From: Thuidium tamariscinum
Lineage: Eukaryota > Streptophyta > Bryopsida > Hypnales > Thuidiaceae
Direction: 5' to 3'
Assembly: GCA_947034885.2 (NCBI GenBank)
Contig: OX344756.2
Span: 15,868,098-15,932,097, forward strand
Length of the DNA stretch: 64,000 nt
Below the pieces are notes generated by a model. The model had not been told where the DNA came from. It did not search any database and was given only the letters and a program-made list of their open reading frames with translations. Within the stretch, counting starts at the first letter, position 1. Each line of letters starts with the position of its first letter. Made by a program: the position numbers and the translations under genes. Shown piece by piece: positions 3,201 to 57,100 of this stretch.

Positions 3201-5799
3201 CATCTGGCATGCAATCGTCGCATTCTTCTTTCCCTACTTTGCCATGCACCAAGCAGAGTAAGCGTTACTCACTTAAGCTTATGTGTTTTCTAAACAAGAA
3301 TTTAGATAATGTAGGATGTGAGGGGACTATGTAAGGTAGACAAGCCTATTACCACCCTAATTTGCAATCTAAATATTTTGAGGCCAATTCTAAGAGGGGT
3401 ACATATTTTTCAGAGGTAAGTGCTAAGGGTTTTTTTTCATTTTTTATGAAGTGCCAAAGTAGTGACGTGAAATGTTAGAGTGGTGCTCCAAATTTCAACA
3501 TTCATCCATGTATTGGATAGAAAATATCATATTAGCACATATCACACATTTATAATTTCATTTCCATTCATTATTTGACAATTTCATCTAATTTTATTTT
3601 CTTAATTTGAAATTTATTTGGTGATTTCATCCAAAATTTAAATGTTTATTTTCTATAGGCTTGGTGCAAGGCCCATTTTTTGGGTGCAATTTGATGACAA
3701 GTCACCAAATAAAAGAACACAAGTGTGTACTTATTTCACACGTCAAACCTAAGTGGAATTTTAATTTTCCAATCAAAATTGTAATTTTTGTAAATTTTTG
3801 AAGTGGTCCGCCTTGAAATTACAAAATTAAGCATAGAATGGAGGCATAAACATCATGTAATCAATCCATAACTACTCTCCTATATTTGTATTGGCACTCA
3901 AGACTTCACCAATGAAAGATTGACATATTACCTTTTTGACATTAATGCACTAAAATTGTAAAAAAAATGAGCAAATTTGCGAGATGGATTGGACAAAATT
4001 AGGGCCAAAAATAGGGTGATGGAATTAGAAAGCAAACTAGTCTACCTTATATGATGTAGATGCTCTTTGTGTAGCTTTCATGTAAAGTGAGTTTAGTCAT
4101 ATTAATGATATTTTACTCTCTACTTTCATCTCATCAAACTTCTTAAATTACATCACATTTCTTGTATTTCATTCCTATTTGTAGAATAAATCCGAAGTAA
4201 TTCAAAGTAGGCATGTATTATAACAAAATGCATGCATTTTATTCCTTTATATATGTCTATTTTTTAAACTTCTTGGCAATTTTTTTGATTGAATATCATA
4301 TTGTTTGCTTATTTTACCTTCTTTAATATTTTATTTTTACTTTCAAATCTTCTTTTTAATTTTTGTCAAGTTTAGAATACTAATCACTAGGTTAAAGGGA
4401 TTTAATTGGTACTTTAATCATGATTGTTCTTTTTCATACAGAACGAATGGAGAAAGTATTGGATTATGGTCTTTTGGAACTACAATATATATCATGGCAG
4501 TTGTCATTGTTAATGTGAAGTTAGCTACCCATGTATCATCATGGGTTGTGATTCAAATATTGGTATTTGTTATGACAATTTGCTCTCTATTCATCTTCTT
4601 GTTATTTCTATCAATATTTTTTAGTGCAAAAGATATGATTGAAGACCTTGACTCTTTGGGTTATAACTTATTTTACAAGCCATCATTTTGGTTTCTATTG
4701 ATATTGAGCCCTATTACAGCATGTCTTCCAGACATTGCTTATTCAATTTTTCATGAATATTCTCATCCAACAGATGCTATAATATTACAAGAATTAGAAT
4801 ATGGATGGCAAGATGGAAAGTTTCTAAAAGGTTCATCAAATTGGAAAGAAGAGATACATGCCCCTAGTTTCTTTGAATCAAAAAATGAAGTTGAATGCAT
4901 AGTTGAAGAAGATATTCAAGAAAGTTCATTTGAGTTTCCTCTAGTAGCAGGAACTATAGCTAGAAGAAAGACTTGGAGAGAAATTGTGAGTGATGAAAGA
5001 TTTGAGGCCACTGATCATACAAACTTTACCACTTGGGATGGAAAGAGAAAGAGTAGTGGATTCCACATGGTCACTCGTCTTTCTGCCCCTCACCAAATCC
5101 CTCAACCACTTCAAGCAGGCCCAATTCCTCTACATCGTAAATGCTTTGTAATCTTTATTGTCTATATAGGTTTTAAATCACTTGTAGTAATTTGAAATTT
5201 ACTTGAGCAATATAAAATTACAACAGATCATTGTTAAATTTTTTTGTTAATAATAATAATAATATTATGTATTTAGTTGGTTTTAAAAAAATTATCACTT
5301 CTCTACTATATTTTCATAAATTTATAATTCCTTGAATCAGAAATTGGATTCAACATTGAACATTGTAGATAAAGTTGTTACTATGTGAGCCTAAGAATGT
5401 TAACCCATGAGCCTAAAAGACTATACACCTATAGTATAAGTGTTGATAGTATAGAAACCTTCTACAATTATAGTGCATTTGTATTGTAAATACTAATATT
5501 ATAAGTATTTATGTTATAAACATGTTCTATGGTTGTAAGATATCTACTTATATACGCTCAAGGCTCACATGCTCACATTTTCATGCTTACATATTAGAAT
5601 ACTAGCACCATTGATAATGTAGATATGACATGTATAAAATCATCCGCCAAAAATTTATATTAAGACATACCATGTACTTTTAATTTTATGGTTTGTAGGT
5701 TCATCAATAAAAAAATCAGTTTTCATTATTGACAAAATGAAAAATAATGAAGAACCCAAAAAATCTTCTCTATGTTCACCTACGGCAACAAAATCATAG
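258..5799 (+). CDS. P4-type ATPase (phospholipid flippase), 3' part of gene
   Basis: P4-ATPases move phospholipids to the cytosolic leaflet of membranes; plant members are the ALA proteins. Exons in frame: 258-371, 611-703, 1100-1274, 1565-1710, 2178-2374, 2904-3257, 4442-5136, 5699-5799 (about 624 residues). Seen: [15 protein letters not shown] (611-703), [13 protein letters not shown] with the KMET motif (1100-1274), CRVTPLQK (end of exon 4), the hinge motif [10 protein letters not shown] (2178-2374) and HGRWSFIRN leading into the membrane domain. Exons 2904-5136 code for hydrophobic helices matching M3-M10, then a cytosolic tail. The phosphorylation site (DKTG) and earlier exons lie upstream of the window. 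The last long exon is far more AT-rich than the earlier ones, and the intron before it (3258-4441) holds an interspersed repeat. The stop at 5797-5799 depends on the acceptor at 5697-5698. An acceptor at 5814-5815 would instead continue in frame into the repeat region downstream. Confidence 0.93.
1358..1437. repeat. Small inverted-repeat hairpin in flippase intron
   Basis: Arms 1358-1375 and 1420-1437 are perfect 18-bp reverse complements (AATCTTCTCCATGATTCA) around a 44-bp loop. It lies wholly inside the intron 1275-1564. It resembles a short MITE, but no target duplication could be settled. Confidence 0.7.
3335..4080. repeat. Interspersed repeat D, copy 1, in last large flippase intron
   Basis: Several blocks match the reverse complement of sequence around 37920-38086 (for example ACAAGCCTATTACCACCCTA near 3344, and the block near 3757-3785) and of 34980-35110. 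It accounts for most of the 1.2-kb intron 3258-4441. Ends are not defined, and no terminal inverted repeat or coding capacity was seen. Confidence 0.6.
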
Positions 5800-23191: not shown

Positions 23192-25125
23192 ATGCATGCT
23201 TGTGGCTATGGTCGAGTTCAAGCTTCACGCATTCCAATTCCCATTCCAATTTTACCACCAGAGCCATCTCCACCTGGAATCATGCACCACCACCATGGTC
23301 ATGGACTATGGCCATCAACATCCTCAACATATATGCAAGGTCCACATGGAAATGGTCTTGTAGGATTACGTACCCATAGTATATCATCTCGACCACCTCG
23401 TAAAAAACCTCGACTTGCTCGATGGAGTGCAGCACCATATTTGCCACGTCGATCTTTAGAAGCCATGGCAACAGGACAAGGAACTTTGCCACGCTATGGT
23501 GATGAAGGGACTGCAGATGTTATATTAATATTGAAACCAATAGAAGGTCTTCCTTTACCACCTCTTTTATTACATTCTCGAGCATTGAGACGGAGTGAGT
23601 TTTTTGAAACTCGCTTAAGTGAGAGATGGGCAACTTCAAGTGATCATAATGGACCCTTAGAAATTACATTAGATAAATGTGTGAATCCAAGTACTTATGT
23701 AAGATGTATACAATTGTTATATGTACCTGATCGAATCAAACATACAGCATTCAATGATGTACAAGATGCACTTGGAATCTTGGAGGTGGCTGCCGAATTG
23801 CTCTTTCATGATTGTGTTGATGCATGCATGAGATATTTAGAAGCAGTGCCATGGACACTTGAAAATGAAGCAACAATTCGTAGTTGTGTTGCAAGTTTAC
23901 ATTTACAATCATCACCTGATTTGGCAGCAAGGTTGTGTATATCTCAAAATGGAATTATGGAAAAGCCAGTTGATGTAATGAAAGATGTATTGGGTGAACT
24001 TTTAGCTCTAGTGACAAATGGTGCACCTTCAAAAGCACGTGACATTACTGAGCGTGTGCTTCTTGCAAATGTTCACCCTTCAGCATCTCCTACTTTTGCA
24101 ATAGTTAATGAAGTTGCATTATTGAAAGAATTTCAAGGAAATTTGAGTCAATTGAAAATTCAATTGAGGAAGTTTTCAAATTTTTTCTCATGGAATGCTC
24201 ATCAAGTAATTAATTACTAACTTAATATCTTAAACATTCTTGTGTATTAGAATATTATAGATGATTTTTGTTCTATGATAAATTGAAATTTTTTAACTAA
24301 TATATTATTTAATTTGTATCTATAAAATATTTTTTGTTTTATTCTATATATTTATCAATAAAATGCTATATTTTTGAATTTGATCATCTATTGTCAAATG
24401 TCAAGTGCATTACAACTTTATTTTATAATTCACTAATATTTATTCAACTTTAAAAACATTATAAGAATGGAAAAATGATATCTAATTGCAAGCTCTAAAT
24501 TCTCAATTTCTATATATGATTAAAATCTATAATTTAGTCTTCTTTTTGTAAAAATAAGCTCTTTCATAAATGTTTTGAATTGCATTTTTAGGTAACATTG
24601 GCTTGCTCTGCATTGAGATGGCTACTAGACGAATTGTTTGCTCTTCAAATTGCAGACATGTCAATCAAAATATTTTCAGAAGAACAAGAACTTGCACAGT
24701 TGATGGTATCAAGAATGTATCAAAATCCTTTTACAGAGACATTGTTTCAAATATTAGTGCGTATGTTGCAAGCACTTCAAAAAGGTGAGGTTGTAGCTCC
24801 TCGAGCAGTGAGGTTAGGTCTTGTATCAACATGGTTGCATGTTGTTGCCAAGTTAGGCAATGATGGTGATGATAATTTTGGAAAAGACAATGAATTGCAA
24901 CAAAACCTAGAAGTAGGTCTTAGTGCAATTGTTGAAACTCTACCCATGCTAGATCAAGAGGCAATATTTAAAATATGGATTGGGGCGTGTTTAAAATGCC
25001 GCAAAGCATGGCCAGATTTGAGTGAGGCTTTTGATTCTTGGTGTAGTAAACTTCGAGCTTCTCAACGAGAAACAGATTTAGAATTAGATAGGGTACCACC
25101 TACATCTGAGGTGTGCTCGTCATGA
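23192..25125 (+). CDS. Plant BTB/POZ domain-containing protein
   Basis: Two exons, 23192-24205 and 24592-25125, join in frame to give 515 residues. The first 90 residues are rich in Pro, His and Arg, with a basic patch RPPRKKPRLARW that could be a nuclear signal. A BTB-like fold follows: ADVILILKP, LLLHSRALRRSEFFETRL, then TYVRCIQLLY, and a helical region ending AVPWTLENEATI. The long C-terminal helical part matches the plant BTB family typified by Arabidopsis At3g50780/At3g05675 as I recall it. Such proteins are thought to act as CUL3 adaptors, which is not shown here. The start is the first ATG of the open frame; an upstream exon cannot be excluded. Codons are strongly A/T-ending, unlike PEX16 3.5 kb downstream. 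Confidence 0.8.
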
Positions 25126-34396: not shown

Positions 34397-34626
34397 TTAA
34401 CCCTTGAATGACGTTGCGAGCGTTTGGCATCTATTGAATGACAAAGAATCTTTCTTTCCAAGATAGAAATGCAACTTTTCATCCTTAGTATTGGGGGTGG
34501 AAAGGAAAGATCTTCTATAGTACTTTGACTTCCAATACATATATTTTGCTTTTTCAAAGTAGGTTATGTCACACGGTGTCAAAATACATGGTTTCTGTGG
34601 CCACCGGTCTGTCCTTCAAGGGTTAA
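34397..34626. mobile_element. Family P piggyBac MITE (230 bp)
   Basis: TTAA at both ends, with termini TTAACCCTTGAATGAC and TTAACCCTTGAAGGAC (inverted), 15 of 16 matching. These closely resemble the ends of the 6.5-kb piggyBac element at 44762. Internal sequence is less AT-rich than its surroundings, like that element. Confidence 0.85.
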
Positions 34627-36740: not shown

Positions 36741-36990
36741 TTAACTCCTGAGCGCTTAGAGCTAATTCATTGAAATCCAAACCTTTACAAACTCATTCCA
36801 CTCAAACTTTCTTCTAAGAAGAAATCCACATAAATCTACCGTACCAATTGGTAGTCAAGAGAGACCTAGAGGTTTGGGGAAAAGGACATGTCTTTTGACT
36901 ATACCATGCAAAAGATTATAATAGTCAAACAAGAAAGTTTTTCAAATTGGAGAGACCATATTGTTGATCTCTTGGGCACTCAAGGGTTAA
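36741..36990. mobile_element. Diverged family P piggyBac MITE (250 bp)
   Basis: TTAA boundaries with TTAACTCCTGAGCGCTTAGAG at the left and, inverted, TTAACCCTTGAGTGCCCAAG at the right. The ends are related to each other and to the P family. Confidence 0.6.
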
Positions 36991-42958: not shown

Positions 42959-44048
42959 GGGTGAATGCAAGAAACACTTAAAAGTCTTTTGTCACAACCT
43001 AGTTTTTTACTTTTTTTTTGCCATAACTTTTGTGTTTTAGCTCCAAATGACTCAAAATTTATAGGGGAGCTACTCATAGCTATTATGTATCTATAATGAA
43101 TTTAGGAGATTTTTCAAAAATAATTTATTATTTTTAAATAGCCCCAAAAATTTCTCACAGTACTCAATTTAGGGGATTATAGCACCATTTATCTCCAAAA
43201 AAACAAATTTTGACCTAAAATTTGGAGAGGATGGTATCTTAATAGACTTATACCTAATATACACAAGAATTCTAAAAATACTTATTTTTAAGTGTTGTAG
43301 AAGTCTACAAAGAGAGCTTCATTTTGCATTTTTTTCCAAAGGTATAAAACATTATTTTGGTGAGTTTTTTGGTTAAATATAACCACCAAAAAGTTTTTTC
43401 AAGTATTGTATTTTTATGTATTTTAAGAAAAAATAATCCTATTTCTTACAAATTAAAATGTCACAAGTTGTATTTTCTTCACTGTAATTCTATGAGAATT
43501 CTATGTCCAAAGTTCTCGGTGAAGAAAATACAACTTGTGACATTTTAATTTGTAAAAAATACGATTTTTTTTTTAAATACATAAAAAATTAAAACTTGAA
43601 AAAAAAAAATTGGTAATGATATTTGACTAAAAAACTCACCAAAATAATGTTTTATACCTTGGAAAAAAATGCAGAATGAAGCTCTCTTTGTAAACTTCTA
43701 CAACACTTAAAAATAAGTATTTTTAGAGTTCCTTTGGAAAATAGGTACAAATCTACTAAGAAAATATCCTCTCTAAATTTCAGGTCAAAATTTGTTTTTT
43801 TTGAGATAAATGGTGCTAAATCCCCCTAAATTGAGTATTGTGAGAAATTTTTGGGGCTATTTAAGAATAATAAATTATTTTTGAAAAATCTCCAAAATTC
43901 ATTATAGATACATAATAGCTATTAGTAGCTCCCCTATAAATTTTGAGTCATTAGTAACTAAAACACAAAAGTTATGGCTAAAAGAAAAATCAGAAGCTCG
44001 GGTGTGACGAAATGCAACAAATAGTACAAGTGTTTCTTGCATTCACCT
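42959..44048. mobile_element. Fold-back derivative of family C1
   Basis: The ends are C-type inverted repeats (GGGTGAATGCAAGAAACACTT and its counterpart) with a 4-bp duplication TTTA on both sides. The whole 1.09 kb is one long inverted repeat of about 540-bp arms meeting near 43500. Transcribed through, it would form a near-perfect hairpin. Confidence 0.85.
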
Positions 44049-44456: not shown

Positions 44457-44929
44457 TTAAGTTGCAATCATTACACTACATACAATGGCTTGCAAAAGCT
44501 TGTCCCTTAAATTGAACCTGCCTATGAGAGTCCAACCATCCATGACAAACTCCTAGTTAAATAATCATTATAATTTGTTTTTAATCCACAACAGACTTTT
44601 TCTAAAAATTGGAATTAGGACTACAATAGGTTGATTTGTGGCCATATTTATCGCCTTGGGAGATGGTCATGGAGTTATTAGTAGCTATCATAGGATATTT
44701 ACATTTTTCTAGTATAAACTTCAGAAATCATGTAGCCATATTAGAAAATGTTGTAATTGCTTTAACCCTTTAGTGACCGCGGTCGATCTTGGGGGGTACT
44801 GCAGTTTTGGACTATACGGTTTGCAAAGGGTAACCTCGAGAGAAATTTGTAGCCCAGGAGGATGATCAGACCTGGTATATCAAGGTTACAGGCCATTAGC
44901 AATGTGTTGCAAAAAAAAATAGTAATCTG

Positions 44930-45187
44930 ATGGTGCGATTACACATGAGGAGTACGAGAAGATTCATGTCTGAAATGACTCTGCTACTCAAAAACGACAA
45001 GTACGCCAATGAAGTTGTGCACATCTTCGGTTTCACAGGTCGGAAAGCATCAAGATTAGTTGTCGACGTTCTCAGCTTGGAGGTGACTCTCAGTGTTGAA
45101 AAATGGAACAAATCTGAGCTACCATGTGCATTTCGCAGCATGCTTTCTGAGGTCCTCCTCAGGAACAATATACAAACGCCTAGGTGA
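44930..45187 (+). CDS. Unrecognised open frame in the piggyBac left arm
   Basis: 85 codons with protein-like composition (VVHIFGFTGRKASRLVVDVL). It is not a piggyBac protein and I do not recognise it. A CAG acceptor-like site at its middle (before GTCGGAAAG) suggests it could be a captured exon with flanking intron. A frame on the opposite strand looks less protein-like. Confidence 0.3.
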   Translation: MVRLHMRSTRRFMSEMTLLLKNDKYANEVVHIFGFTGRKASRLVVDVLSLEVTLSVEKWNKSELPCAFRSMLSEVLLRNNIQTPR

Positions 45188-45628
45188 ATATAGGCAAGTT
45201 CTATAGACTAAGAAAGCTATATTGGAAAATCCAATCGGTTGAATTTGTTACAAGCAATTGTTACAACTATACTACGCTTTCACTTTCCCAATCAAGAAAC
45301 TCATTACCTACAAATTTCATCACGTACGCCACCATTCACCTCAAATACGCACTGAAACTGAAGTACAAATACCACACACATCTTTTACATAGCTCGAACA
45401 CCTAGCGCTTGATATTTCAAGCTAAAGCAGCAAGTCGCATTGCCATCTCAGACGTTAAGACTCTCCACTCTGGCGTTCTCTTACGCTCCCAACTCCTCTG
45501 GTCTCGTTCTCGAAAAGTCTTGTGAAAAAAAACCCGCCCAAGGTACAGGTGCAAACATTTAGATCTGTCATTTTGAAGTGAAATACAGTACTTCGCATTG
45601 ACAACTAAGATCTTCATTGTGAAAAGCT

Positions 45629-45763
45629 ATGTCTGCAGGTTTCAGACAAAGGGCTGCCTGCCTCGCCCTTTTGCAAAATGTCGAGCGTCTCTGTCTCACA
45701 TCTTGCAACAATGTGACAGACGAGGGCATCAAAAATCTTAAGAGCAGATGCATGACATTATAG
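45629..45763 (+). pseudogene. Captured leucine-rich-repeat gene fragment
   Basis: 44 codons (ATG 45629 to TAG 45763) containing NVERLCLTSCNNVTDEGIKN. This fits the cysteine-containing LRR of F-box/AMN1-type proteins (L-x-L-x-x-C-x-x-V/I-T-D-x-G-I). It is preceded by a CTGCAG acceptor-like site and followed at once by GTGCAG, so it looks like one exon lifted from a host gene. It lies opposite in strand to the transposase. Confidence 0.6.
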
Positions 45764-45768
45764 GTGCA

Positions 45769-45895
45769 GCTCTCGTTTTTTGCCCATAATCGTTGAGTTT
45801 CCAATATTGCCGCACTTCTTAGATACAAATTACAGTTTATATCGCTCTCGTTTTTTGTTCGTAATCGCTGAGTATCCAATATTGCAAATTACAGT
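45769..45895. repeat. Tandem duplication, 75-bp spacing, inside the piggyBac element
   Basis: GCTCTCGTTTTTTG at 45769 recurs at 45844, followed each time by TAATCG-TGAGT-TCCAATATTGC. The phrase AAATTACAGTTTATATC also occurs twice. It is a local duplication in non-coding cargo. Confidence 0.8.
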
Positions 45896-46197
45896 TTATA
45901 TCAATCATCGGAGAGTTTGAATAGTGCGATTAACTGCACGCTAACAACAAAAGCTAACACTCAAGCTTGAGCAGTGTACAAGGGTTCTATCAAAATGTAG
46001 CCAGAGATGAACCATAATATAATCTGTTCTATAAATTCGATGCGACAAACTTGGAACTACTTAGGCCTGTTGAACCACAGGGCTCACTTAGATTTTCATC
46101 ATCAGCTTTCAAAAGAAAATACTAGTATCGAAGGCTGGGCCTACTGAACCCCGTGCATGATCAGACCGGAATAGACTTGTGTAATTAGGCCCGTCCC

Positions 46198-46632
46198 ATG
46201 CCAAAAGCAAAGCTGTACGAGCAAGTAAAAGTTGATTTTTGCGTTTGCTACAGGAGCTCCCTGTTCTTTCGGTTCGGAGTAGCTTCAGAAATCAGAGAAA
46301 CGTACCATTTCTCAATGAGTTTCAGTACACCTTTTGAGGTCACATCGATAGTTCATAATACAGACTACCGCGCGCATCGGCGCATCTCAGTCAAGCAAAC
46401 ACTTCGGCACTCTTCAATGGCCGATACAAGTGACAGGATTGAATTTACAACACTCCATGATGTAATAAACCAGGGCCTCGATACAATAACAACAGCATTT
46501 CAAAATTGTTTTTTAGTTTTTATTTCTTTTTCAACAATCATATCCAAGTTGAATCTTGCTATGACGCCATTCATTCACATACTATATGAGTGGGCTGCAA
46601 AAACTCATGCACTACTAATCCACTCGTTCTAG
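46198..46632 (+). CDS. Unrecognised open frame in the piggyBac cargo region
   Basis: 144 codons from an ATG, with one hydrophobic stretch near the C-terminus (FLVFISFSTIISKLNLAM). No family recognised and no repeat structure. It may be a chance frame in the less AT-rich element. Confidence 0.25.
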   Translation: MPKAKLYEQVKVDFCVCYRSSLFFRFGVASEIRETYHFSMSFSTPFEVTSIVHNTDYRAHRRISVKQTLRHSSMADTSDRIEFTTLHDVINQGLDTITTAFQNCFLVFISFSTIISKLNLAMTPFIHILYEWAAKTHALLIHSF

Positions 46633-46953
46633 CTACGTCGACAGCCACATCGATGAAAACTGGAAGCCATGCATACGTACTCCATTGTACTTTCTGGGGT
46701 CTTTGAAGTTATAAGGCCCCGTCCGATTGTTTTAGTCCGATTGATCGCGTTCAAACACCCTGAATCCCATCACAAAACACCCCACTGTTCAATCCTCATG
46801 TACCTTACAATTTGACAAATTCCTGCAATACGACAACATCGCATTGAAATAGTAGCATCTTGTTATTCATAATCATGTAGTACAAAGCACCTGACTTTCA
46901 AATCTTCAAGAACAACAAGTTATCTTACTTCATCAATTAGAAATTCAACGATT

Positions 46954-48797
46954 TCATTGACGCCTGATTGTAGCCGGCGCTTGATGGAAAGATCCGAAAC
47001 AATTAGCGAGGCACAAGCGAGTGTCACGACACTGGCGACAAACGTATGTTGTGCGCTTTTGGCAGACAAAACAAACCCGACACAACGATGTTGCATGGGG
47101 CATGTGAGCACGACCTACAGTATCGGATCCATGAGTTTCACATTTAGGTCTCGGTGGCAACGGTGCCGCTGAACCGTCTTAGGCGGTTGGAAACAAAAGG
47201 CCCATCAATGAATAAGCCACTTCAAGCTGAAAATCCCTATGTGTCTTTGGTTTGTTACCGTGCGCATTGGCCGCTTCTCTAAAGATTACGTACACATTGG
47301 TCAGTGCTATGTCCATTGCAAAAAAGTACACACGATGCCACCACTTCTTCGTTGCTATCTGTATAGAGTAAGATCCCCGAAGTTGGTCACTTACATCTAC
47401 GCCACGCATGTTCTGAGAATACGCTACTTGAATCGGGGAGGTAGATATTGCGAGCCGTTGTGAGCCTTTATTCCTCAATACTGAAACACCGCCAGGCTGC
47501 ATAGGATCCTCAGCAGTTGACAAGAAGTGCACTCCTTTGGTATCCGACCAATGAATGGCAGCCATTTGGGGGTCACGATGTACTCTTATCTGGAGTGTCC
47601 TTTGATTCTCCCGTTTCATCACGTTCAATGAAGTCGGGAAGCCTTTGCGATGTTGTCTGGACGTCCCGATTGCGTAAAACCCACGTTGCAACAAGCTGTC
47701 GAAGAGCTTGACAGACGAAAAGAAATTATCCATTGCCACTCAATAGTACTTCCCTTCCATGCCTGCAGTTAAATGTGTGACCACCGCAACTCCCATGCCC
47801 ATATCAGGAGGCCCCACTAAGTTCACTCGACCTTCATTTTCTGCTCCGACGTACACTTCAATGTTCCAAACGAACTTGGACGAACTATCTGCAAGGATCC
47901 AAAGCTTGATGCCGTGACTAATGGGTTTCATAGGCATGTATTGCTTGAAAGAGCAGAACCTGCCGTTATATCCAACCATACACTCATCAACGGTAATATA
48001 TGGACCCGGATTCCATAATGCCTTTGAATTAGCCGTGACTGCATCTAAGATCCATCAACACTTTCCAATAGGATCAAATGCAGGGTCTGATTTGTCAATA
48101 ATGTAGGAATCTTTCCATACCATATAAAGGCATTGAAGAATATATAGAAATCTGAATTGACTCATTGTTCGTACAATATCGGAACAGTGAAGTGTACTTC
48201 CAATTCGGCGCCAATAGTCTCTCACAGCTGGTTGTTTCCTGATTCCCATGAGGATGATTATGCCACAAAATTGTCGATACTCCAACAAGGTAATAGGCGT
48301 TTCTCACTGCACACCTCCTTTGCACTTCCCAGGTTGTGGATCAACATAGTTTGCATAAGCATTGCTTGCATGCACGATCCTCCGTTGTATCTTTTCATCC
48401 CAAAAGCGCAGAAAGCTCTCTGCAGGGGTCATGGGTTCAAACCCGAGCTTTTCTGTTGGTCCCGGAGTTGGGCCACTGAAAAGGTGACGTGGTAAAGCGA
48501 CCATGTTTTTGCATGCCAATTAGTGTCGTCGTATTTTGACATGAAGTCTTCATCCTCTGGCATAGGTCCATGTGCATAAATTCCAAGCTCCCCTAATAGT
48601 ATTGTTGGTTGGTCTTCTGGTCGCAATAATTCATCGGATGATCCAGATGAGTAACCATCTCCTGAAGAGTAGAAGTCCCACAAGTTTGGATTCCATTCCG
48701 ACTCTGACGAATATTGTTCATGGCCAATCTTATGGTTTCCTTTAGCCTGTATAACGATGAACATAGACTTTAGAACAAACGTCAATATGCTTACCAT
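46954..48797 (-). pseudogene. PiggyBac transposase (DDE_Tnp_1_7), decayed
   Basis: Read right to left, the core starts with a Ser/Asp/Glu-rich segment and the FSGPTPGP motif. AYWRRIG-like helical blocks follow, then VDECMVGYNGR (first catalytic Asp, near 47987), AMDNFF (second, near 47729) and RGVDVSDQLRGSY (third, near 47396). Last comes a cysteine-rich C-terminal domain with CRVCFVCQKRTTYVCRQC and CFGSFH. All three catalytic aspartates are kept. The frame is broken by in-frame TGA codons near 48304, 48038 and 47740, a TAA at 47179-47181, and a frameshift near 48500. A TACAG acceptor near 48748 marks the likely start of this exon. It cannot make full-length transposase as read. Confidence 0.93.
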
Positions 48798-48980
48798 AGG
48801 AGGATGTTGGACGTTCGCAAGTCAAGAACATCGACAATCATGTAAACATGAGTTTCTAGAAGCCTCACTATAATTCTAGATTTGTAATAAACTACAGCAA
48901 TGACGATGTAGCAGTCACAGTCACAGGACAACATGATTGACCTATACCCTAAAAAGAGATTCACTCTCAATAAAGGCATA

Positions 48981-49589
48981 TCACAATACATTGCATGAAA
49001 AGCTCACAAAATCATCGATCCTATAGGTAGCTAGTGAAAATAGGCTGACCAGATGATGTGTTCCAGTTTCGGAAATTGTGGAGGAGTCGATGTCATGACC
49101 GTCGAAAACAGCATCGACAAACGTGCAATTTTTTTCGAAAACATCTTGAATACTGAAGTCTGTACCAAAATCACATCGAAGCCGCGCATATTTACTATCA
49201 TTACTTTCAAATCTTTCCAACACTTTCTCAGTGGCGAAACCGCATGGGATCTCTAGCAACTCTCCACCCAACTACATGTCGATGAACGATACTCTCACAA
49301 AATCTGAATGAGTTGGTGTGATGGTATGCATGCATTGGAGTACTTGAGTGGCAATTGCGTGGGTGCTTGTACTTGGGCCATCGACAACAAGCTCCTTCCC
49401 AGGTCTTTGTCGACAATCACGATCCTTTGATCCACCAGCATCACCGAAGAGAACTCGTGGGGTATTGCCGAAAGTGAATGGAGTACACATGAGTCGCCTA
49501 CCTTGTGACCTTGTCTCTGGAGGAGTAAATAAAATTGCAGGTCTTAGTACCACCTTCTCGGGCGATGGCAACGGCAGGTGTGGCGGCAA
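48981..49589 (-). pseudogene. Likely N-terminal exon of the piggyBac transposase
   Basis: Two abutting open segments in the same frame (49589-49272 and 49271 downward), separated by one TAG. Composition is acidic and protein-like (DFGTDFSIQDVFEKNCTFVD). A GTCAGC donor near 49045 could join to the acceptor near 48748. The piggyBac N-terminus is poorly conserved, so assignment rests on position and strand. Confidence 0.45.
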
Positions 49590-50099
49590 TTGATCCTAGT
49601 TTGTATTCACCACGCGACGAGCTCTTCCCTTGCGCCCTGAACTACATCCTGCACCGTCGACGTCGACTCGAACTGATGGACCTGAGTTCGAACTCTTCCT
49701 CTTTCAATAGGGGCGCTTGGAAATAGGTCAGCTGGAACTCTGAGGAACAATTACTTCTTTCTTGCAGACTTCGGAAGTCACACCCATTAGAAGCTCATGT
49801 AAACATTCTGCTTAAAGCTGTACTGTGGAAACGGATTGTGAAGCTTTTCGAGAAGAACGTCTTCTACCTTGCACATGATTTGGAAGTACTGTGATGCACT
49901 CACCAGTCCTAGCCACTGGATTTGCTTCGATTGAAGCCTTCCTCTCTCTCTCCGCGTCCATGGAGAGCGGCGACCACATCCTACTAGGGAGGGGAGGCTT
50001 ACAACAATTGGCAAACTACTGTATACGTCATCCAGCTCATCGTCAAAGGTGTTGAAGATGACATGTGGGTCCTCATGGAACTAGGAAGGTGAGGTCGGC

Positions 50100-50561
50100 T
50101 CAAGCTCTAGGATACACTCTTGATCGAAGAATGGCATTGAGGGCATTAGGAATCCCATCAGGATCTCCTTCTTCCCGTCGATACGTCCACCCAAGCACAG
50201 TCGCCAAGTGTTTTCGAAACACCCACCGAAGCTGTCGATTGGTAACAGCAACCGAATCTTCAAAACCAAAAGCTCTTTGTGGAATAGATAGCGATAACAA
50301 GTACTGACGATCCAACAAACCCAAAAGAATGTGTAAATTCCTGCCAACCACTCCCTTCTTATTTGCGAAATCCAAGAGTATTCGGTTGGCTTCCTCATCA
50401 ATAGTTGCTGTCATAGGGGGATTCGGCCAGCTCTTTGTAGAGACTTGCCTCCTCCCATTTCCAGAAATTGTGTTCCCACCCCTATCGCCATACTTGCTAC
50501 TTCTTCCACTACGCATTTTACCTGAGTACCTGCACACTATAATTTTGACAACAACTAACAT
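50100..50561 (-). CDS. Unrecognised 153-codon open frame in the piggyBac right arm
   Basis: It is protein-like (ATIDEEANRILLDFANKKGV, LLGLLDRQYLLSLSIPQ, QLRWVFRKHLATVLGW) and on the same strand as the transposase. It could be an upstream transposase exon or an accessory gene. No family recognised. Confidence 0.4.
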   Translation of the reverse strand: MLVVVKIIVCRYSGKMRSGRSSKYGDRGGNTISGNGRRQVSTKSWPNPPMTATIDEEANRILLDFANKKGVVGRNLHILLGLLDRQYLLSLSIPQRAFGFEDSVAVTNRQLRWVFRKHLATVLGWTYRREEGDPDGIPNALNAILRSRVYPRA

Positions 50562-50890
50562 ATATCGCCACTAACCTCCACTCGCTCTCTTCCACTACTT
50601 GTGTTAATGAGCATTAGAAGTAATTTGCACTTGTCTACACATTGCAATGAACCCTTGCAAACTTGCAATCCCACTCTCTGCATGATCTATTCACTTACAT
50701 CACTGACACTGCAAAAAATTTGACAACAATGTACGCATTTTGAAACCGCCCAAAGTATGTAATCAACCAGGAGCAATGTCAAACCTACACACACTTGAAA
50801 ATCTGAACGTCCCTTATCGTCACCATTGAAGCAAACTGAATGTCCTTGCAGAGAAAGGAGTTTGCCTCTGATTCCTCAGGAGGACGGACC

Positions 50891-51121
50891 TCAACGGTCT
50901 ATAACATTCATATGGTAGTTGGTCTTCACCCCGCCAAAAAGCAACGTCTTCTGGAAGCTCAACCACCTAGCGTTCTTTATGCGGACAGGTTGGCACGTTC
51001 CCCATGCACACTTGACCTCGTTCACACTAGGGTGCTCTCCCAATCTTTTGTATTTTTTTTCATCCTTTACAGTGAAGATGTATTTCTTTCTATGATTTCC
51101 ATCTAAAGAGCCCGGTGTCAT
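50891..51121 (-). CDS. Unrecognised open frame next to the right piggyBac terminus
   Basis: It opens with ATG at 51121, about 190 bp inside the right end, where a transposase 5' exon would be expected. 76 codons, Lys-rich start (GNHRKKYIFTVKDEKKYKRL). Assignment is by position only. Confidence 0.3.
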   Translation of the reverse strand: MTPGSLDGNHRKKYIFTVKDEKKYKRLGEHPSVNEVKCAWGTCQPVRIKNARWLSFQKTLLFGGVKTNYHMNVIDR

Positions 51122-51311
51122 TTGCTGGAATAAACATAGCTACCACAGTATTGCACAGATCGCCATGAAATTTGTTCCAAATGGAGCACATGAAGATGCA
51201 TGATGTCTGTTACGTTTTGTGTTTTTTGAAATTAGATGAAATCAAAGGCCAAAAAGCATTGGAAGTCCCTAAATCAACCAAAAGTTGGTTGACCGGTCAC
51301 TAAAGGGTTAA

Positions 51312-54185
51312 ATGATAAGAAGACCACTATTAAAACACTTTATGCTAATTTGAAGTACTCAATAATAATCCATTCAACACTTTTCAACTATCTATTATTC
51401 AAAAAATCAAACCATTTTTGATAAGGTGTCTTGATAATAAATCTTGCTCTTTCAAGGCTAAGTGTAGTAAATTTGATTGCTAAGTAAGCAATTTGACTTA
51501 AATACCTTTGAAATAATTTCATGTTCTTGATTCAAATTAAGAGTTTATTGTTGGGCAAGGATGCATGTGATTTTAAGCTATAGTATAGAGATTTTGTTGT
51601 CATAAAGTTGTGATTTTGAATTTTTCAGCTTCAATGATTTTTTGACTTTTGTACCAATTCACATCACTATACTTTTTTAAAGAATTTATACTTACCAAAT
51701 ATAAATTTTTATGAGGAAAAAAACTTCGACTTCTTTCAAGTTTTCATTTTATCATTAACTGAATACATTTTTGGCATATCATACCATCATTGAAACAACA
51801 AATGATTGTACTAAATTCATAATGATTTGAGTACAAATTTTGAATCCATGTTTCTAGTGTATAGACATCTTCAAGAATGGAATGCAACCGTTTTACTATT
51901 AGTTCCTAAAAATTTTGAATACTACTTAGTCAATTTATATTTCTAAAAACTATTTGTATTAGTGCAATTTGGAAAATAATAAAAATTTAGAAGTAATAAT
52001 TACTTCATTTCTATTAACTTAATGTTTGATGAATTTTTTTAATATTATTATTTTTAATTTGGATCATTTAAAATTTAGAAATTTAACTGTACAACCTTGA
52101 AATATCAACTTTTGGAAATTTGAAATTGTTTGATCAAAATTTTACAAATTCACAAACCTATAGATTTTGAAACTTCAAATTTTCTAAGCTACGAAATCTT
52201 TTGACATTCAAAAAATTTGTAAATAGAAATTGATTATATTGATTAAGAAAAAGAAAATTAGAACAACAATCTAGTGACCAATGCATTTGCAAATTACAAA
52301 TACTCAGACAACTATTAAAAAGTTGTATATAATTTCAAACAATTGTTTGTCATTGATAGTAGTATATAGAATATTGATTCAAATAATACAATTACTTCCG
52401 TCCATACTAAACTTCTATAAATAGATGTTATTGTAGCCTTTGAGGTTCAATATAACCTTCCATCCTTGACCACTTATTTTTATGAGGTCTTTAAGATAGA
52501 TTGATAATAACCTTTTTTTATGTAGTCAAGAATTCAATGTAGACAATTCAAAGTAAGGTCAATGTATCAGTAAATTTGTTTTGCCAATGCTTTGGCCAAT
52601 GTTTATTTTGGACCATATTAATTCTCATAGCTATGTAATCTACATTTGGGCTTTTTTTTTATTAGGCATTAAATAACACTTTTTATGAAAATGAAATCAA
52701 CTCAAAATTTCTTCAAAGGTTTTGTATTGTAGCTCAATTATTTAGTCAAAATTTTAATCCTCCTTCAAAACCAAATGATGGAGCAATGGAATGCTTTTAT
52801 TTATGGACATGCTACTTCATTTGTCTCAAAAAGTGATAAACAATGTACAATGTTGGTATTAGAAAGTTTATTTATTGATTCCATTGAATCTTTTTGTCAA
52901 AAGAATTTAATCTTAGAAGACTTGTATAGCATTGAAATGATTGTACTTATTGTATATGATAAGTTGAAGATTTGTCTAATTTTTGTTGTTGGCTCTAGAA
53001 CAATAGGACTTTTGCATTACCAAAATTACATTTGTAGTATTAGAGCAAGTGTAAAGAAGTTGATTCAAATTTTGGTTTTTCAACTACTTATTGAATACAT
53101 GTAAAGAAGATGATTGTATACAATGTATGAATTGATTTCTAATATATGATTTTCAAATGATTTCATTAGATGAATGCACTCAAATGTTTGGTTTAAATAA
53201 AATTGCATATACATTGTGCAATAAATTATCCCAATTGCAAACATATTTAATTGCACATGTATTGCATTGACTCTACAACATCATCATTTTGAGAATTTAA
53301 TGTTTGAATTTTTATATAATTTAATTTATTTAAGATTTGATCTTGCTAATTATTGTTGAATGAATCTGCATGAAATTACAAATTAATAGTGACTTGAGTT
53401 CTTGATTATATAGATAGTGTAATGTTGAAAACTATTGGATTCATACCAAATGCTTTTAAGAAGTTGGAGCAAATGTAATATTAGAGGAATTAGGATTTTT
53501 AATATTTCAAAATTCATTTGATGTTTTCTACCTTAGCATATTATTTTCAAGATTCTTAATGCCTTAATTTACAATAAATGAAAATAACTTTTGAAAATAA
53601 TTCTAATCTTGCAATTGAAAAAATCTACTCATAACATTATTACATATCTACTATTTATGCTAGCTTAACAATTCTCACGACAATTCTACAACCATGACAA
53701 ATTCTACACTTTGATTGTTCAATTATTGGGCTTTGAAAGACCCTAAAACCCAAGTCTCTTGCATCACAAGTTGTCTTCAATTCATACATGTATACAATAA
53801 GTAGTTGAAAAGCCAAAATTTTAAGTTTAAATTTTAATATAACTATTTTCAAGGGAGATTTTTAGAGCCCTCAAATCTTCTACTTTATTTATTAAGTGAA
53901 TTCAATTGTCTATGTAATCTTAAAATGTATTACAATGTCATGAATACAAGACAAAACCAAATTTTCTAATGTTGGATATTTAGTATTAATTTTTTTTTAA
54001 TATTTAAATATTTTTAAGCTTATAAATCAAATTTTGTATAATACATTAAATTTGGAAGGCCACTAGATCATAATTAAAAGGGTTCATTTATTATTCTACA
54101 GTTTGAAGCAATGACTTGGGATTACTAGTTGCAACCATATAAGAAGTTCAAAGAACGACAATAGAATTTAAATTGATGAGTATAG
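51312..54185. other. AT-rich stretch upstream of the recognised IFT144 exons
   Basis: I could not identify any of the WD40 exons expected for the IFT144 N-terminus. An open frame at 52775-53104 does not resemble WDR19. A near-identical inverted pair (53069-53103 and 53785-53819, core CAACTACTTATTG) is present. Confidence 0.5.
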
Positions 54186-57100
54186 TTCTCCAAAGAACAA
54201 CAATAGGAAGGAGGCAAATATGGTTTCATGTGTTCATTATACATCAATGTTTTTGATATTTGGAACACAAATTGGAAGTCTATTCTACTATTATGTTAAT
54301 GATAATTCTCCTACTTTTATAAGTGAATTGCATCATATTGAAGGTGGCATCACAAGGTTTCTTCAATAAATCTTTTAAAAAATGTTGTAAATAAATTTTT
54401 TTTATTGATATTCAAGAAATAATTTGTCATGATTTTTTAAATAAATAAATAAATTTATATTTTTATCTACAATGGAATCAAATAAATTGTAAAACATTAA
54501 ATAACAATCATATAAAAATTGTTAGGATATGGCCAAATCAATTAGGGACTCAAATGATATTTGAAGATGAGAGGCAAGTGATATACTTCTATAACCCACT
54601 TAACTACCAAGTAAGTTCTACAATGATAAATATTGATAAGTAGTTGTAGGTAGTTATATACATATATTATTGTATGACTAACTGTCAAATTTGTGGTTCA
54701 TATATCTACAAATCTAATCTAATATATTAAAATTTTAAAAAAAATGTAATTTCAAAGAAATTATAACATCCTCAAGTTTGTAAAAACATGTATCATTAAC
54801 TATGTATAATAAATAAAATCAATTATATATCATATAGGTGCAACGGATTTCAACTTCTTCAAACCTTATTAAAGATGTAATTTGGAATGAATGGGATCCC
54901 CATATTTTTAGCCTTTCAACCAAAAAAACATCAAGTCATACATACATTTATACTTCAGTTAGTGACGGTGCTAAGAAACTACCTCATTCAATCAATCAAT
55001 TCAACCAATCAACTAATGTACCTAGGGTATCAACTAAATAAATTTATAAATTTATTGAAAATTTTAAAAAAATAATTTAAAATTAAAATTAAAATTTAGA
55101 ATTGATTTTTTATTATTATAGTATTAAAACTAAAATATAGCATTTGTGATATGTATTCAAATGTAGTATGCATTATGAATTCTACTCTTGTATAGTTAAA
55201 CAAATCTTAATGTTTTAATTAATATTTTTTAATTTTTAATTTTTTACTTATTAATTTTGTATATTATAGTATGTAAAAATTATACATGGTTTTCAAGATT
55301 ATACAATTAATTTTTAGGATGACAATGTTGATTACACAACAACAAAAGCCAAATTTGAAGATGACTTGAATATGGTGTATCTTGACAAAGCTTGGCTTTC
55401 TGCTACAATATTGAACAATAACATGGTATTTAAGTATTCAAAATTTTATTTAAAAAAAATACTATAGGCTCATTTTTTAACACAGTTCTAGATCAGAAGT
55501 GTAAAATAAATAAGCTTTGCTTTTTAACATGTTTGTTTCATTTGCTAAGCAATTGGTACATATAATTAGATTTGGGAAGCTTTAGGAAATGTTGCTTTAA
55601 AACATTTGGAGATTCAAGTAGCTATCAAAGCATGTGAAGAATCCAACAATGTTATAAATTTAACTAGACTATATGAGATTGAAGAGGTTGAAGAACATCA
55701 ATTATTACTTGGTGAAGCTTCAAAATTCTTGCAAGAATACAGTAAAGCGCTTGTAATTCACTTGTATCCTGTATAATTGTATCATACATATTTTTTGTAA
55801 ATTTTTAATTTGTTCTATTTATTTATATATTTAAAGTCTATTTGATGCATTATGTAGATATTATAATAGAAAAACAAATATAAATTTTACAAAACATCTA
55901 AAAATTAAAAATAAAACATTTAATGAATAAAATGAAGCCAAAGTCATAATGTGAAGCTAATAATGTCAAAAATATCTAAACTTAAATTTGTAGAAATGCT
56001 ATAGGAAACTCTTAAGAAACAAAAATGCATGTATATTATTATGTCATCTTCAAGATTGGAATCAAGTAAGTACCTATTTTTTAAATTTGGATTTGAGCTT
56101 ATTTAACCCCTAAAGCCCTGAGGTGCATTTTTTGCCATTATAAATTTTTTCAGCAGCTCACTACGAATGGAGTTTTTATTTTTTTTTGCTGAAAATTTTA
56201 CACAAGATGTGCCCCCCAAGGAGTAGCTTTAAGGCCCAACAATTTTCTTAACTTTTGACTTTGTGGTTAAATAGTTATGGCATGATATGTTGTTTTCTTT
56301 ACTCGGAAGGCAGCCCGGGCAGCTGAAAAAACTTCTTTAAAAAATCTTTTTTTTTCAAAAGTGAAATTTCAAATTGATTTTTTAGGTTTTAACAGACATG
56401 AAAAGCTTTGTTTCATCCCATTTGGATTAAGGAGTCAAAAGTTATGAGCAATTTTAGTTTGTGGGTAGGTATGGAATTTCTTAAAACCATACCTACCCAC
56501 AAACTAAAACTGCTCATAATTTTTGACTTCTTAATCCAAATGGGATGAAACAAAGCTTCCTATGCCTATAAAAACCTAAAGGATCAATTTGAAATTTCAC
56601 TTTTGAAAAAAAAGTTTTTTTAAAGAAGTTTTTTCAGCTGCCCGGGCTGCCTTCCGAGTAAAGAAAACGATATATCATGCCATAACTTTTTAACCACAAA
56701 GTCAAAAGTTATGAAAATTGTTGGGCCTTAAAGATACTCCTCAGGCACATCTTGTGTAAGAAGTTTAGCAAAAAAAAATAAAAACTCCATTTATAGTGAG
56801 CTGCCCAAAAAATTTATAATGCCAAAAAATACACCTCAGGGCTTCAGGAATTAAAATACATTTCACCAAATTATGTAGATTCTTATCTCATACATTATAT
56901 TTGCATTAAAATTTGCATCGTCACTATAGTAATAAAATTTGCAATTTTTTGGGTAAAAACTATTATAGATAGCAAACATCAATCAAGTGGATTCAAAATT
57001 TTCATCATTTCTACCACCAAATTATGGGCATTTCTTAGAACTTCATGATATACAACAACTAGCATATTCAAGTTATGAAGGAAAATTGAAATGTTGCAAT

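Follow-up and report, generated by a model that had tools for sequence, protein, structure and literature searches.

The locus, the ends of the element and its insertion site

The window, i.e. the whole stretch of 64,000 nucleotides that was analyzed, contains host genes coding for the C-terminal part of a phospholipid-translocating ATPase (P4-ATPase; 4293-5195) and for a BTB/POZ ankyrin-like protein (24592-25125). It also holds a complete piggyBac element, the features of which are given in Table 1. Large fold-back repeats flank this element (42960-44047 and 56102-56855); their arms measure up to 329 nt (91% complementary) and 112-148 nt (87-94%). A 230-bp inverted-repeat element extends from TTAA to TTAA at 34397-34626; its ends are CCCTTGAATGAC and CCCTTGAAGGAC, another end of this kind is found at 36973-36990, and the element likely represents a second, non-autonomous family of the piggyBac type.

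Table 1. Positions in the window of the piggyBac element and its parts
Feature	Position	Strand	Remark
Complete piggyBac element, both TTAA included	44762..51311	.	6550 bp
Left end: TTAA and 14-bp terminal inverted repeat	44762..44779	+	18-mer recurring genome-wide
Right end: terminal inverted repeat and TTAA	51294..51311	-	Inverted match to left end
Upstream coding segment, conserved 138-aa domain, no Pfam match	50103..50516	-	Third-position bias in comparison with sibling
Second coding segment under weaker constraint, with stops in the window copy	49050..49677 (limits approximate)	-	Phase bias, frame, donor site
Predicted phase-0 GT-AG intron	48747..49049	-	Donor and acceptor at matching places in the window copy and the sibling L031
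DDE transposase segment, broken	47182..48746	-	PF13843 matches, catalytic Asp codons
In-frame TAA (47179-47181), then cysteine-rich C-terminal segment	46957..47181	-	zf-Tnp_2 below cut-off

An earlier note on this DNA had described a complete element with perfect 18-bp termini including TTAA, and the two ends are indeed identical in inverted orientation. Perfect 19-nt inverted repeats lie at 44761-44779 and 51294-51312, the element's own share of which is 18 bp with the TTAA. Terminal inverted repeats of the piggyBac superfamily begin with CCC/CCY, and both repeats of the window element, which read CCCTTTAGTGACCG, start in this way. Of the 64567 pairs of TTAA sites in the window with a spacing of at most 12 kb, only four have a perfect 14-nt inverted repeat adjoining the TTAA on the inner side; the three besides the window element lie within longer fold-back repeats.

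The boundary of the insertion was assessed with a query in which both flanks of the element were fused at one TTAA. This query gave 61 matches among the 40 best-scored of 224 candidates, two of them being the window flanks themselves. The junction is crossed by six matches with an identity of 68-73%, while further copies match as two adjacent pieces. Five of the six crossing copies and one split copy (L084-L089) were aligned at the junction. L084 reads through it with a single TTAA and lacks an insert. The insert is likewise missing from L085, L087, L088 and L089, which span the junction at an altered site, and L086 has three additional bases there. Since paralogues of the repeat cross the junction without an insert, the insertion evidently took place within one copy of a host repeat that is dispersed in the genome. 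The empty sites, together with the single TTAA in L084, display a feature of the piggyBac superfamily, namely insertion at TTAA with its duplication. They are paralogous and not allelic, and being only 68-73% alike they document the site rather than the allele; with this qualification, the doubt voiced earlier that the ends might not mark the boundary of the insertion is answered by related sites that lack the element. The window element is longer than complete bee piggyBacs, for which 2.23-3.52 kb is stated in an excerpt of PMC10140906.

Identity and decay of the transposase

PF13843 matches the window element in several pieces in one minus-strand frame (E = 2.2e-23, 4.2e-17 and 3.2e-7; a fourth piece, at 0.032, is below threshold), and the piece at 47179-47739 matches the solved structures of piggyBat (2.2e-10) and piggyBac (4.2e-5). 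Aspartates occupy all three catalytic positions, as claimed in the earlier note (codons 47986-47988, 47728-47730 and 47395-47397); their columns were matched to those of the Trichoplusia enzyme via a sibling protein aligned to PDB 6x67. The cysteine-rich tail named in the earlier note is in place, and the Cys/His-rich tail of the sibling could be aligned to piggyBat, but zf-Tnp_2 stays under the Pfam cut-off both in the window copy (E = 0.013) and in the sibling (E = 2.4e-4, 22 bits against a cut-off of 24).

The decay of the gene, also noticed earlier, is evident from three in-frame TGA codons in the DDE segment (48304-48306, 48055-48057 and 47740-47742), followed by the TAA that precedes the tail, and from a frameshift between about 48519 and 48432, which is deduced because the preceding residues are encoded in a different frame. 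With four in-frame stops and a frameshift, the window copy has no intact transposase gene and, to judge from its reading frame, its transposase is dead although the catalytic aspartates are kept. No match was obtained on viral contigs when they were scanned with the C-terminal half of the enzyme, a search that detects close relatives only, and an NCBIfam search with nine segments returned a single match at chance level (0.066).

A sibling with an open reading frame

When the genome was searched for siblings with an intact transposase, as the earlier note had proposed, an element of 6339 bp with the same perfect ends and an open DDE frame was found (L031, C2:40201456-40207794), so that the concern that no other copies might exist is dispelled by siblings and open transposase frames in this genome. 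The DDE frame of L031 is uninterrupted over 594 codons, tail included, and over 515 residues the encoded protein shares 82.5% identity with that of the window copy. The L031 protein matches PF13843 with 5.3e-69 and, among structures in the PDB, piggyBac 6x67 with 1.5e-29 and piggyBat 9c0f with 9.8e-25. In the DDE segment, mismatches between the window copy and L031 are mostly at third codon positions, with a dN/dS of 0.07-0.11 and a dS of 0.98-1.08 (four stop codons skipped). Such a low dN/dS at this dS indicates that the two lines diverged for a long time while selection acted on the protein; the window copy was probably broken only towards the end of this period.

Coding segments upstream of the transposase

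The upstream segment at 50103-50516 is also conserved in L031, with a dN of 0.115-0.123 and a dS of 0.51-0.58. No Pfam match was obtained up to an E of 1, and a resemblance of the L031 domain to tyrosine phosphatase in the PDB (E = 0.023-1.3) was taken as chance. The fold predicted from the window copy alone consists of helices only, at low confidence (mean pLDDT of 56). In the whole genome, the segment has at least 124 matches (150 best of 214 candidates scored).

Of the 116 scored DDE loci, 29 are preceded in the same orientation, at a distance of no more than 6 kb, by a match to the upstream domain, and none has one downstream or on the opposite strand. Among the scored matches, 87 DDE loci are without a paired upstream domain, and 95 of the 124 upstream matches are without a paired DDE locus. 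These unpaired loci do not show absence, because only the best matches were scored and because the search missed family A (see below), which carries a related upstream segment (blastp E = 1e-8 in a two-sequence comparison). A profile of the domain gave no match in L043-L072, of which only 1.5 kb beside the DDE match were covered.

Short copies with shared ends

Genome-wide, the 18-bp end occurs 324 times in each direction with up to two mismatches, compared with 13 and 6 occurrences of the reversed control, and is present exactly in at least 64 places. For 16 of the first 30 exact places, some of which are the two ends of one copy, a matching end lies within 1.5 kb, at a spacing of 884-892 bp in 14 cases, 497 bp in one and 580 bp in one. 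Nine copies of 887-899 bp each possess one left-type and one right-type end, as in L031. One of them, L033, served as the reference, to which the other eight show an identity of 89-93%. When L033 was used as a DNA query, 40 full-length matches including itself were obtained, the others being 90-93% identical (best 40 of 4608 candidates). A candidate full-length element proposed by end spacing (C9:7809186-7815764) was rejected; it begins with a 581-bp copy, and its interior does not match the element.

As the 890- and 580-bp copies are too short to encode a transposase, they must have moved in trans. We infer that an enzyme of the family of the window copy and L031 moved them. However, the sequence shared with L031 comprises only about 31-50 bp at the ends of the 890-bp copies and up to about 100 bp in the 580-bp type, and another enzyme recognizing like ends could therefore have done so.

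piggyBac loci across the genome

A search of the genome with PF13843 revealed at least 116 loci, all at 1.4e-70 or better (116 of 659 candidates scored), while the same profile had no match in 14 control genomes. The catalytic match is free of stops in 74 of the 116 scored loci and contains a stop in 42, and the scored transposases are distributed over contigs C1-C10. The window copy, which the earlier note had called notable, is no isolated oddity; it is an old copy, one of 116 or more loci with a piggyBac transposase. When the best 30 PF13843 loci were grouped with the window copy and L031 by protein identity, 15 groups resulted at 80%, nine at 60% and five at 45%, and the families are 33-73% identical to one another.

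One of these, family A, comprises 11 copies that are 99.9-100% identical over at least 3984 bp, and all 11 begin exactly at TTAA with differing flanks. Its 22-base end has 11 exact occurrences and five with one mismatch, compared with none in the control. A copy obtained whole measures 5096 bp and contains an open frame of 1023 codons. As assembled, the near-identical copies at different TTAA sites point to very recent transposition of this family.

Pairs of oppositely oriented transposase copies that lie about 7-15 kb apart and score equally or almost equally were observed at C8:23933884-23942167, C9:19502615-19519018 and C8:19067897-19081635, and are perhaps inverted duplications.

Host and base composition

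The plant-type host proposed in the earlier note is borne out by GRAS genes, for which 65 exon matches (best 7.1e-145) were found on ten contigs (C1-C7, C9-C11) and none in the 14 control genomes; judged by these genes, the host is a streptophyte. A search for YABBY found no match in the genome and likewise none in the control genomes, so that it had no positive control. Taken together, the GRAS and YABBY searches lean toward a non-seed streptophyte. The earlier remark that piggyBac is not typical of flowering plants is thus beside the point, all the more as piggyBac is already listed for plants.

The piggyBac copies (window, L031 and L043-L073) are high in GC and CpG compared with the AT-rich, CpG-poor host. 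The window element has a GC content of 43.7% and an observed/expected CpG ratio of 0.78, in contrast to 25-28% and 0.17-0.24 in its flanks and 32-39% and 0.13-0.47 in three host coding stretches. GC content and CpG ratio are 0.45 and 0.76 in L031 and 0.51 and 0.82 in family A. The 30 transposase loci have a GC content of 0.41-0.51 with 1.5-kb flanks included, and the nine copies of about 890 bp are CpG-poor (0.22-0.34). These high GC and CpG values of the transposase-bearing copies may be due in part to their youth.

Alternative explanations

The upstream segment could be a separate accessory gene instead of the N-terminal part of the transposase. In the window copy and L031 alike, this first segment is terminated by a TGA at the same position, and comparison of these two copies allowed no splice site joining it to the second segment to be placed. 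The second segment, on the other hand, joins the DDE exon through a phase-0 GT-AG intron whose position agrees between the two copies. In L031, the open DDE frame has its first ATG only well inside the N-terminal part, and in each of the 29 adjacent pairs the domain precedes the DDE match in the same orientation. We therefore consider an accessory gene rather unlikely and read the segments, from the matching intron and the same-strand pairing, as one long transposase gene, in which the upstream domain and a linker exon would be spliced to the DDE exon. Even less probable, in our judgment, is that the broken window copy was itself mobilized in trans after its decay, as the earlier note had suggested. 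Perfect ends beside a dead gene and the existence of transposase-less copies with the same ends agree with this idea, and movement in trans as such is compatible with the transposase-less copies of about 890 bp and 580 bp. For the window copy itself, however, a search with its upstream domain gave no close copy, the next best match being 78% identical (best 150 of 214 candidates), and perfect ends are equally expected if an element moved intact and was broken later.

With respect to the origin of the elements, contamination of the assembly by an animal or fungal genome would account for a transposon best known from animals and for a composition unlike that of the flanks. Yet the element sits within a repeat dispersed in the host genome, with paralogous sites elsewhere, the window also holds P4-ATPase and BTB/POZ-type genes, and GRAS genes are present on nine of the ten contigs with scored transposases (C1-C7, C9 and C10), which speaks against contamination so strongly that we regard its probability as negligible. 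Repeated horizontal transfer from a GC-richer donor, in place of long residence, is a possibility to be taken more seriously, albeit still a doubtful one. It is favored by the contrast in GC and CpG between the window element and its flanks and the host coding stretches, by the GC content of the 30 loci and by the practical identity of the family A copies; families that are only 33-73% identical to one another and short copies poor in CpG fit long residence instead, and young copies need not match the composition of their host.

Comparison with known systems and significance

piggyBac is best known from animals, in which it is a widely used genome tool. The protein of L031 aligns over both DDE domain and tail with piggyBat (PDB 9c0f), which is a compact bat element. 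Like the piggyBac of Trichoplusia ni (PDB 6x67/6x68), the window element has a TTAA target, ends starting with CCC, the DDE aspartates and a cysteine-rich tail, although this tail scores below the Pfam cut-off. Unlike the T. ni element, given as 2472 bp with 14-bp ends in an excerpt of PMC10140906, it measures 6550 bp and has upstream coding segments with an undescribed domain. Teratorn, a piggyBac-herpesvirus fusion in the cited excerpt (PMC10175614), is likewise a piggyBac-like element that acquired additional coding sequence, but it is a composite of about 180 kb, whereas the elements described here are a few kb long and one extra conserved domain was found.

In plants, the excerpts consulted list piggyBac in a repeat table of Ceratopteris (PMC6890710) and in a list of angiosperm MITEs (PMC10004981), name it in a review of plant transposable elements (PMC10794571), and state that piggyBac-like elements occur in plants (PMC8086355, PMC10140906). 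The element accordingly falls within an established superfamily whose occurrence in plants has been stated before. The first three sources share with our data the superfamily name and a plant host; in the excerpts their entries are list items, whereas here open transposase frames, exact ends, insert-free sites and near-identical copies are at hand. Judged by the titles found, no paper dealt with bryophyte piggyBac elements, and none described open, near-identical plant piggyBac copies or the upstream domain; a moss-genome paper employs the word 'piggybacking' with a different meaning.

We hold with high confidence the core of these results, i.e. the ends, the TTAA boundary, the identity of the transposase, its decay, the siblings, the selection on the protein and the many piggyBac loci, some of them near-identical. 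The most plausible explanation is a cut-and-paste DNA transposon of the piggyBac superfamily that integrated into a dispersed repeat of the host at a TTAA site. Binding of the intact enzyme to the paired ends would have allowed the element to move from one TTAA to another, and the transposase was later lost by mutation. The family of the window element is small and old and includes at least one sibling with an open DDE frame. Activity of any copy is something that we infer from sequence, in which insertion footprints are the only trace seen of excision and integration. Evenly balanced, in our view, is the broader proposal that a non-seed streptophyte harbors a diverse and recently, perhaps still, active piggyBac radiation, possibly seeded horizontally, with a lineage-specific N-terminal domain (a putative undescribed DNA-binding or targeting module) fused upstream of the transposase.

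A type of transposon best known from animals thus looks recently active in a plant lineage. In the plant sources cited, as far as their excerpts go, piggyBac is named only in lists; a streptophyte genome with 116 or more transposase loci, of which 74 have no stop in the catalytic match, and with 11 near-identical copies at different TTAA sites would make natural piggyBac activity in plants directly testable, and the role of the transposase-linked upstream domain, be it in end binding or in target choice, could be measured.
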